A DNA stretch of 64,000 nucleotides from Pseudodesulfovibrio sp. S3. GTDB lineage: Bacteria > Desulfobacterota > Desulfovibrionia > Desulfovibrionales > Desulfovibrionaceae. The DNA lies in NCBI RefSeq assembly GCF_004025585.1, contig NZ_QTZO01000004.1, forward strand, positions 1 through 64,000, given 5' to 3'. Shown piece by piece: positions 6,661 to 8,122 of the stretch (positions are counted from its first letter, which is position 1; each line of letters begins with the position of its first letter). A model generated the notes under the pieces. The model was not told where the DNA came from. It did no database searches and saw only the letters and a list, made by a program, of their open reading frames with translations. Both the position numbers and the translations under genes were made by a program.

Positions 6661-6951
6661 CTAGGCAGCCAGTTTGACGGTCATGAATTTGAAGATGCCG
6701 TCGGTGATGCGGATGTTGCGTTCCAGCTCGGCGACCAGGGCACCGGGAGCTTCAAACACAAGGCGCACATAGTATCCACGGGTCTGCTTCTCGACCGGGT
6801 AGGCCAGTTGGCGCATGCCCCAGTCATCGGTCTCAACCATTTTGCCGCCGTCACGGTCCACGATGCCGGTGAGGGTGGTCAGGATTGCTTTCCTGTCATC
6901 CTCAGCCAACTCCGGGGAGAGAAGGACGAGCGTCTCGTAATTGTTTGCCAT
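6661..6951 (-). CDS. rpsF: 30S ribosomal protein S6
   Basis: 96-residue partner of S18. The conserved N-terminus [13 protein letters not shown] and the region [19 protein letters not shown] identify it. The ATG at 6951 has an AAGGAG Shine-Dalgarno at good spacing; the open frame extends to 7068, but that extension does not resemble S6. Its own promoter lies upstream (7015-7043), and the leader contains a small perfect hairpin, possibly a feedback site. Confidence 0.96.
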
Positions 6952-6979
6952 TTCTATAAACTCCTTTTGGTCATTGGCC

Positions 6980-6997
6980 CTCCTCCACCTGGAGGAG
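6980..6997 (-). promoter_or_regulatory. Hairpin in the rpsF leader
   Basis: In the transcript the leader contains CUCCUCC-AGGU-GGAGGAG, a 7-bp stem with a 4-base loop, about 30 bases before the rpsF start. Many bacteria regulate the rpsF operon by an S6:S18-binding leader structure. Whether this hairpin is that element is inference; I could not match the full consensus. Confidence 0.35.
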
Positions 6998-7014
6998 AGC
7001 AAGGCAAGAGGGGT

Positions 7015-7043
7015 TACATATTGGTAATTGATGCCTCTGTCAA
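7015..7043 (-). promoter_or_regulatory. Sigma70-type promoter for rpsF-rpsR-rplI-dnaB
   Basis: On the minus strand, TTGACA (7043-7038) is followed after exactly 17 bases by TATGTA (7020-7015). It lies just after the small gene ending at 7069 and about 65 bases before rpsF. The perfect -35 box and optimal spacing make it a good candidate for the main ribosomal-protein promoter. Confidence 0.7.
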
Positions 7044-7068
7044 GTCGAGCATCCCCCTCTCGGGCCAT

Positions 7069-7215
7069 CTACTTGTTCTCATCATCTTTTTCGGGCGGCG
7101 TCCAGCCGCATTGTTCCTTGCCCGGGCCTCAACCGACGTTGAATTTGCCTCGGAGGAACCGGCCAACGACCAGGCCCAGGGCGATAAGGCCCAGCAGTTG
7201 CAACCACTCCGGCAT
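7069..7215 (-). CDS. Tiny membrane protein with in-frame TGA; candidate selenoprotein
   Basis: The ATG at 7215 is preceded by GGGAGG at good spacing and lies 10 bases after purC. It encodes 28 residues: one membrane helix (WLQLLGLIALGLVVGRFL) and a basic stretch, then TGA at 7131-7129. The same frame continues for 19 sensible codons (GPGKEQCGWTPPEKDDENK) to TAG at 7071-7069. The tail is hydrophilic, uses codons common in this genome and has a Cys seven residues after the TGA. A hairpin GCGGC-UGGAC-GCCGC begins 20 bases after UGA, with a G as second loop base, compatible with published bacterial SECIS consensus rules. Reading TGA as selenocysteine would give a 48-residue protein. Alternatives are a plain 28-residue protein, a nonsense mutation or a sequencing error. 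The membrane-protein part is fairly secure; selenocysteine is inference. Confidence 0.5.
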
Positions 7216-7225
7216 GGGAACCTCC

Positions 7226-8122
7226 CTAGACCTTGAGGTCTTCGCCGGTTAAAAGCTTGTATGCTTCCAGATACTTGGCGCGAGTTGCATCGGCGATGTC
7301 CTTGGGCACGCTGGGTGCCGGAGGCTGCTTGTTGAAGCCGATTTCCAGCAGCCAATCCCGAAAGTATTGCTTGTCGAAGCTGGGCTGGGATTTTCCCGGA
7401 GCATAACCCTTCTCAGGCCAGAAACGGGATGAATCAGGGGTCAGGGCTTCGTCGATGAAGACCAGTTCACCGTCGATCAGGCCGAATTCGAATTTGGTAT
7501 CCGCAATGAGGATGCCGCGCTTCTTGGCGTAGTCGCGAGCGCGGGTATAGATGGCCAGGGCCAGCTTCTCCACTTTGCGCATCATCTCTTCGCCCAGCAG
7601 TTCGGCGGCTTTTCCCAGGGAGATGTTCTCGTCGTGCGCTCCCAGGTCCGCCTTGGTGGACGGGGTGAACAGCGCGGTCTCGAGCATTTCGGATTCCTTG
7701 AGGTTCGCGGGAAGCTTGTGGCCGCAGACTTCACCTGTCTTGAGGTAGTCGGACCAGCCGGAGCCGGTGATGAAGCCGCGCACGATGCATTCGATGGGCA
7801 GGGGGTTGGCCTTCTTGGCCAATACGGAGCGGTCCTGAAGTTCTGCCTTGTACTTGTGCAGCGGTTCCGGGTAGTCGTCGACATTGGTGGAGATGATGTG
7901 GTTGGGCACCAGGTCTTTCATCATATCCATCCAGAACAGGGTGATCAGGTTGAGAACCTTGCCCTTGTCCTCGATGGGATCGGGCATGACCACGTCAAAG
8001 GCGGAGATGCGGTCGGTGGTCACCAGGAGCAGGGTGTTATCGTCTATCTCGTAAATGTCCCGGACTTTGCCCTTGGAGATGAGCGGATATTCGGTGATGT
8101 TGGTTTCAAGAACGGCAGCCAT
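7226..8122 (-). CDS. purC: Phosphoribosylaminoimidazole-succinocarboxamide synthase (SAICAR synthetase)
   Basis: Purine biosynthesis: ATP-dependent joining of aspartate to CAIR. The 298-residue length matches the longer, yeast-like branch. Seen: the N-terminal ATP loop KGKVRDIYEI, the SAICAR motif region ECIVRGFITGSGW, and DTKFEFGLIDGELVFIDEALTPDSSRFW. A GAGGGAAG Shine-Dalgarno precedes the ATG at 8122. It lies 26 bases after hisD, forming a small biosynthetic run that leads into the tiny membrane gene. Confidence 0.96.
   Translation of the reverse strand: MAAVLETNITEYPLISKGKVRDIYEIDDNTLLLVTTDRISAFDVVMPDPIEDKGKVLNLITLFWMDMMKDLVPNHIISTNVDDYPEPLHKYKAELQDRSVLAKKANPLPIECIVRGFITGSGWSDYLKTGEVCGHKLPANLKESEMLETALFTPSTKADLGAHDENISLGKAAELLGEEMMRKVEKLALAIYTRARDYAKKRGILIADTKFEFGLIDGELVFIDEALTPDSSRFWPEKGYAPGKSQPSFDKQYFRDWLLEIGFNKQPPAPSVPKDIADATRAKYLEAYKLLTGEDLKV

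Follow-up and report, generated by a model that had tools for sequence, protein, structure and literature searches.

Comparative sequence evidence for a family of very small membrane selenoproteins with a SelK/SelS-like layout among relatives of Pseudodesulfovibrio

The closest described proteins in layout to the one reported here are SELENOK (SelK) and SELENOS (SelS), for which passages of PMC10650576 and PMC3628699 describe a single N-terminal membrane helix, a disordered cytosolic tail and selenocysteine (Sec) within that tail. In passages of PMC10650576, the tail of the SelK/SelS family is Gly/Pro-rich, positively charged and disordered, and SelS has a Cys in the same tail as Sec, a feature that it shares with the family described below. 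Prokaryotic selenoproteins, 119 families of which are catalogued in Table 1 of PMC13188914 (part of that source), resemble the present family in decoding UGA with a bacterial SECIS element. According to the published rule, the apical loop of such an element lies 16-37 nt after the UGA and holds at least one G in its first two positions, and the published energy cut-off is <= -7.5 kcal/mol. SECIS-independent methods, as outlined in parts of PMC13188914, pair Sec with Cys homologues, and deep-Sep, as outlined in parts of PMC12013277, retains candidates only if they have a known Sec homologue or two Cys matches in the top ten. Sec-containing members of FmdB have been reported from ocean metagenomes (passages of PMC2398784 and PMC9312934).

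The window analysed here is the whole 64,000-nucleotide stretch of Pseudodesulfovibrio sp. S3 given above. An earlier note on this DNA had pointed to a well-initiated ORF of 28 codons that encodes a membrane helix and stops at a TGA (7131-7129), with the same frame remaining open for 19 codons up to a TAG (7071-7069). Both the coordinates, which lie on the minus strand, and the open frame were confirmed, and the parts of the locus are as follows.

7226..8122, minus strand: upstream neighbour on the same strand, which we take to be purC from the earlier note's label and from recall
7221..7225, minus strand: Shine-Dalgarno sequence GGAGG, abutting the purC stop codon (7228-7226); read from the sequence
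7215-7213, minus strand: ATG start codon of the putative selenoprotein; read from the sequence
7132..7215, minus strand: start and transmembrane part, MPEWLQLLGLIALGLVVGRFLRGKFNVG, 28 codons; from the sequence, the AlphaFold model and a hydrophobic segment in 113 of 113 members
7129..7131, minus strand: in-frame TGA, probable selenocysteine codon, residue 29; from TGA in 112 of 113 loci and Sec machinery in the genome
7072..7128, minus strand: hydrophilic tail, GPGKEQCGWTPPEKDDENK, 19 codons; from the sequence and an in-frame pN/pS of 0.52
minus strand: tail peptide beginning GPGKEQCGWTPPEK..., C-terminal part of the putative selenoprotein
7095..7109, minus strand: SECIS-type hairpin GCGGC-UGGAC-GCCGC; from energy, geometry and covariation in its class
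7069..7071, minus strand: TAG, the true stop codon; from the sequence
6661..6951, minus strand: downstream neighbour (MANNYET...), presumably rpsF, named from the earlier note's label and from recall; start put at 6951 on account of the conserved MANNYET

Sequence comparison makes it near certain that the gene product is a 48-residue selenoprotein with Sec at position 29; Cys36, seven residues past Sec, occupies the usual partner position. The AlphaFold model has a helix at residues 3-25 and a low-confidence tail (mean pLDDT 71.9), and no structure beyond the helix was seen in this model or in a PDB profile search, which returned chance-level matches only. The window genome contains selA (606 bits), selB (395 bits), the selC-encoded tRNA-Sec (79 bits) and selD, all above the curated cut-offs. 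This selD (L158, G000:C33:16572-17501) has itself a single TGA in frame, as expected of a SelD that contains Sec. For rpsF, the longest frame with an ATG start (6661-7068, minus strand) opens at 7068, right behind the stop codon of the putative selenoprotein, and, since the conserved start MANNYET lies at 6951, automatic callers may overextend rpsF.

When the read-through protein was compared with 60 relatives, all 40 places matched at E <= 0.03 held exactly one TGA. With a profile of 30 members (A1), 153 of 297 order genomes gave a match at E <= 0.1, chance and Cys-rich off-family matches included. A wider profile of 46 members (A2) was run on the phylum, presumably Desulfobacterota, and at E <= 0.01 it matched 175 of 395 genomes, which represent 114 of 246 genera; the loci behind these matches were opened in part. 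Our curated set comprises 113 loci: 30 (L001-L030), 35 of L067-L106, and 48 (L109-L156). L108 (the same locus as L088) and L049-L062 and L064-L066 (repeats) lie outside it, as do L063 (G108), a clear member with TGA, and L159-L168, which were inspected by eye. L069-L073, also outside, are small one-helix Cys-rich proteins that do not belong to the family; two were scanned, and FeoB_associated (PF12669) matches one. For L028 the ATG start was used, and a GTG three codons upstream may be the true start.

The internal codon is TGA at 112 of the 113 curated loci and TGC at one (L067); TAA or TAG occurs at this column in none of the 113. The frames themselves end with TAG (48), TAA (36) or TGA (29), and among the terminal TGA codons those of L139 and L145 probably encode a second Sec. 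Among the phylum matches listed, 25 end short of the Sec column, and all 25 were opened; 24 have TGA there, and the remaining one, a second copy (L167, G388:C204), matches in the helix and lacks TGA at the usual column. Two order-set matches have other stops: G004, with one TAG, lacks the helix and looks like chance, and G133:C84, with two TGA and one TAA, is off-column and either degenerate or due to chance. These comparisons support the existence of a selenoprotein family, made up of very small membrane proteins, that extends across the one phylum sampled. Its scope is wider than the earlier note had assumed.

Exchange of Sec and Cys is a classical sign of Sec. The sole Cys form in the curated set, L067 (G223), has TGC and no hairpin, and its frame runs straight through. 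It belongs to the same genus as L068 (G226), which has TGA with a hairpin, and the two loci have a common upstream DegT-type neighbour; G223 does have selB. In the search profiles the Sec column was filled with Cys, which should have favoured Cys forms, and still L067 was the only one met among the opened loci. Three loci of one genus (L139, L145 and L161; g200) have two in-frame TGA codons, the second of which leads into PTUDGxxC-IG-QSKK and carries the usual Sec-x4-Cys motif. The hairpins after the first TGA scored -7.1, -4.2 and -4.2 (the last two weak) and those after the second -6.0, -9.6 and -9.6, and from their sequences these are likely double-Sec proteins. A divergent second copy with TGA lies directly downstream in three genomes (L088, L084 and L106), and also at L037; at L084 the ATG of the second copy overlaps the TGA stop of the first (ATGA).

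Every curated member (113/113) has a hydrophobic segment that resembles a helix and is followed by more K/R than precede it, so the tail is predicted to be cytoplasmic. By eye, a typical sequence reads M, hydrophobic helix, often NRW(V/I)(F/L)PK(L/M)G(V/I)x(T/G), Sec, (G/M)(P/S)xx(S)C and a charged tail; in an 82-row alignment (A3), only the P, the G, the Sec column and the Cys are near-invariant. The proteins are 44-70 residues long, with 13-36 residues after Sec (40 in the double-Sec L139), and the tail consists of 22% K/R and also 18% D/E, with GGG and GP in part of the family. In 109 of 113 members a Cys stands 5-9 residues past the Sec column, in one it stands 18 residues past it, and three (L027, L139 and L145) have none before the next stop codon. 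With the loci outside the curated set considered as well, the Cys partner is absent in L027, L159, L162 and L165 and distant in L149 and L160, so that the Sec-Cys pair is not universal. For 27 sequences (L001-L027), pooled pN/pS was 0.33 before the TGA and 0.52 after it, versus 0.97 and 1.56 for the tail in the other two frames, indicating frame-specific purifying selection on the putative tail; the value of 0.52 is probably an overestimate, since the hairpin should depress synonymous change.

In the window, the hairpin (7109-7095) opens with the 20th base past UGA, its apical loop UGGAC lies 24 nt past UGA, and its energy in a geometry scan is -8.2 kcal/mol. The earlier note had described this hairpin correctly in sequence, in its 20-base start and in its fit to the rule, and had erred in placing G at the first two loop positions; in the 5-nt loop, G stands at the second and third. 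In our scan of all members the stem had to be unbroken and the geometry that of the published rule; the demand for an unbroken stem understates members with a bulge. A hairpin of <= -5 kcal/mol was found in 99 of 112 TGA members, versus 10.3% of 2240 dinucleotide shuffles, and in a second control of 1850 in-frame windows from neighbouring ORFs the figure was 12.1%. At <= -7.5 kcal/mol the numbers were 64 of 112 members versus 3.3% of shuffles and 5.3% of neighbour-ORF windows. No uninterrupted hairpin at <= -5 kcal/mol was found in 13 of the 112, and the Cys form L067 scored only -3.7.

The stems vary in sequence among lineages, and GG or GU is retained in most loops. Covariation was examined in windows aligned at the Cys codon, with L027 excluded, and divided into two hairpin classes: A5, the class of the window hairpin, with Gly or Asp after Cys, and A4, with the remaining members plus L097, L101 and L105, which were placed there because of their hairpin. 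In A4 (24 rows), seven cells had changed on both sides of a pair, and the covariation score was 0.227 versus 0.098 in shuffles (0/500 reached it) and at most 0.064 in slid alignments, one of which ties with the true alignment in the number of pairs with two-sided change (3). In A5 (36 distinct rows of 38), three cells had changed on both sides, with a score of 0.105 versus 0.073 in shuffles (0/500 reached it) and at most 0.073 in slid alignments; further pair types in A5 showed no excess over shuffles (122/500). Four members (L026, L077, L095 and L102) retain the inner stem pairs despite amino acid changes, and two of them, L026 and L095, lack the fifth pair counted from the loop; in L106 one inner pair is broken.

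Across the phylum set, 167 of 353 genomes above the selB cut-off had a family match, versus 8 of 42 below it (tables counted by eye), an association with Fisher p = 0.0005 when relatedness is ignored. The eight, each a multi-contig assembly, are G308, G311, G338, G358, G384, G405, G464 and G619. In the order set, 46 of 297 genomes fell below the cut-off, and five of these (G269, G291, G099, G085 and G086) had a family match at E <= 1e-3, again counted by eye. All 13 genomes with a match below the selB cut-off are incomplete or multi-contig assemblies, in which selB may have been missed.

The earlier note had proposed that the TGA is read as Sec, and the comparison (TGA in 112 of 113 loci, a conserved tail, the hairpin and the machinery) supports that proposal; we consider it all but certain. 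The earlier note had rightly cautioned that an open stretch of nineteen codons is weak evidence by itself, and it is the comparative evidence that decides. The checks that it had suggested gave selA, selB and selC in the genome, with selD besides, all above curated cut-offs; homologues with a conserved tail past the TGA, with no pattern of ending there; one Cys-containing orthologue, L067, with the same upstream neighbour as L068; good conservation past the TGA in the alignment and in the in-frame pN/pS (0.52 versus 0.97 and 1.56); and hairpin covariation in both classes, with no shuffle in 500 reaching the score of either. None of the four observations that it had named as speaking against its reading (no conserved tail, no Cys orthologue, no selB/selC, poor conservation after the TGA) was made.

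At least 39 of the 113 curated loci have a purC relative as their immediate upstream neighbour. In loci L109-L156, none of which falls within the purC-neighbour cluster, a gene for FmdB (TIGR02605) adjoins on the same strand in 20 of 48 (19 recognised by sequence motif, that of G621 by coordinates). These 20 loci carry eight family labels, and the FmdB gene can stand on either side, upstream or downstream; given 267 FmdB matches in the 48 genomes, about 0.04 adjacencies would be expected by chance, relatedness ignored. Two genomes of one family (L141 and L156) carry, between the selenoprotein gene and FmdB, a short related Cys-rich ORF (...HCxKFDxWxDxExxTC...). Among 70 of 133 listed neighbours scanned with Pfam, D-Ala-D-Ala carboxypeptidase was the commonest (7), and there were GTPase matches in five, thioredoxin-type matches in three and DsbD_TM in two. 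The D-Ala-D-Ala carboxypeptidase-type gene lies downstream on the opposite strand at L111, L112, L125, L126, L130, L140 and L144. Our home-made ORF caller missed some purC and FmdB neighbours and took some antisense frames, and because it picks false frames in GC-rich DNA, the neighbour counts are approximate. Apart from purC/rpsF and FmdB the neighbours are mixed, so function is weakly constrained.

From these features we propose that the single N-terminal helix would anchor the protein in the cytoplasmic (inner) membrane, with the basic neck placing the tail in the cytoplasm, where Sec and the nearby Cys could form a reversible selenylsulfide. Tethered in this way, the protein might act in anaerobes as a redox switch, or as a relay for electrons, on the membrane's inner face, meeting peroxides, polysulfides or oxidised thiols at the membrane, and the FmdB-type zinc-ribbon protein may be its partner or client in lineages where the two genes adjoin. 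That a selenoprotein family exists, with a redox role as its leading, unproven mechanism, is highly probable in our judgement. The redox role itself, judged from the position of the Cys, the K/R bias and the few thioredoxin-type and DsbD_TM neighbours, is slightly favoured, and the partnership with FmdB is a tentative suggestion that falls somewhat short of an even chance. Evenly balanced is the fuller picture of an ancient, phylum-wide, nearly Sec-only family that would act as a membrane selenylsulfide switch with FmdB zinc ribbons and as a bacterial counterpart of SelK/SelS, by convergence or descent.

Other readings of the locus start from the TGA itself. If it were an ordinary stop, the gene would encode a 28-residue single-helix microprotein and the open frame downstream would be accidental; the ORF does have a good ribosome site and a valid stop. 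Yet the Sec column never holds TAA or TAG in the curated loci, the tail and its Cys are conserved over the phylum and under in-frame purifying selection, and the orthologue with TGC reads through, leaving this reading next to no chance. Alternatively, incorporation of Sec at the UGA could sense selenium and regulate a neighbouring gene, with the peptide itself mattering little. The position of the frame between purC and rpsF in many relatives, and of second copies directly behind the first in three genomes, would suit such a leader, but in 21 of the 48 loci L109-L156 (approximate ORF picks) the next downstream ORF is on the opposite strand and is at least 150 residues long, so that there is often nothing downstream to regulate. 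As neighbours also vary between lineages while the protein itself is conserved, we hold a leader very improbable.

Two further explanations accept the selenoprotein and assign it another role. The Sec-Cys pair could be a membrane-located ligand for a soft metal or metalloid (Cu, Hg, As or Fe), as the layout of a helix and a thiol-bearing tail is shared with small Cys-rich membrane proteins, five of which were weak off-family matches, and a cluster of four neighbours, at L136, L141, L147 and L151, looks ArsR-like by eye, which the Pfam tally did not confirm. Against this, a comparison of 82 members with PF12669 gave no match at E <= 0.01, and a single Sec with a single Cys offers few ligands for stable metal binding. 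Of the 65 neighbour families 25 are listed, and no transporter recurs among those save FeoB_N in four, matches that by eye we have taken for cross-matches of EngB-type GTPases; we consider metal binding unlikely. Tiny single-pass proteins are often subunits, and the present one could serve a larger membrane enzyme as a small anchor or structural component, its Sec placed at an interface or in the active site of the complex. The neck behind the helix, in which P and G are near-invariant, is conserved beyond the needs of thiol chemistry alone, as a subunit might require, but no conserved partner operon was seen, except FmdB in part of the family, and we doubt this role as well.

The window protein and other members were also compared with existing collections. 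The window protein has no match at E <= 10 in NCBIfam r20 or Pfam, and 82 members gave one weak NCBIfam match (NF041023, E 0.0053) and one weak Pfam match (PF04602, E 0.0056). The sole Rfam match at E <= 10 in window positions 6900-7300, malK-III, fell far below its cut-off and was rejected. L112, the single member searched against a plasmid collection, had no match there. As judged by name, domain or motif, none of the 119 catalogued families in the part of PMC13188914 concerned combines a helix with a following U-x(4-8)-C; the family is not described in passages of PMC9312934, PMC1794560, PMC2398784, PMC5322559 and PMC11227280, and nothing like it is among the new deep-Sep families in passages of PMC12013277. 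We found no report of it in the open literature, a scope that leaves out the groundwater MAG candidates of Deng et al., subscription papers, preprints and supplements. The earlier note's claim of novelty thus stands as regards NCBIfam r20 and Pfam, and also as regards the 119 families insofar as name and motif can tell; from these comparisons the family appears, as far as checked, to be previously uncatalogued. Cys forms are nearly absent, and a reliance of the usual methods on Cys homologues may explain why the catalogues lack it. With matches in ~44% of the phylum genomes sampled and one Cys form in 113, it shows what Sec/Cys pairing can miss, and a near Sec-only family suggests that more Sec-only small proteins exist. 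Its many natural SECIS variants, with covariation, should be useful for refining bacterial SECIS rules.

Among known systems, PF12669 FeoB-associated proteins resemble the family in being very small, with one N-terminal helix and a thiol-bearing tail, and differ in being Cys-rich and without Sec; among 82 members there was no match to the model. FmdB is a soluble zinc ribbon of unrelated sequence, a gene neighbour rather than a relative. Some members read Sec...CSWQP or CSWRP, and SelS has a similar CSW motif. Whereas Sec is second or third from the C-terminus in SelK/SelS, here 13-36 residues follow it; moreover, Sec here precedes Cys, the protein has 44-70 residues, and the bacterial SECIS lies within the coding region. 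The earlier note's comparison with SelK/SelS therefore survives for the helix, the predicted cytoplasmic tail and the placement of Sec and Cys in a disordered stretch, and fails for the C-terminal position of Sec. The resemblance that holds is one of layout, known by description, and it would place a SelK/SelS-like layout in bacteria, where it is open to genetic tests, and link that layout to the FmdB zinc ribbon.
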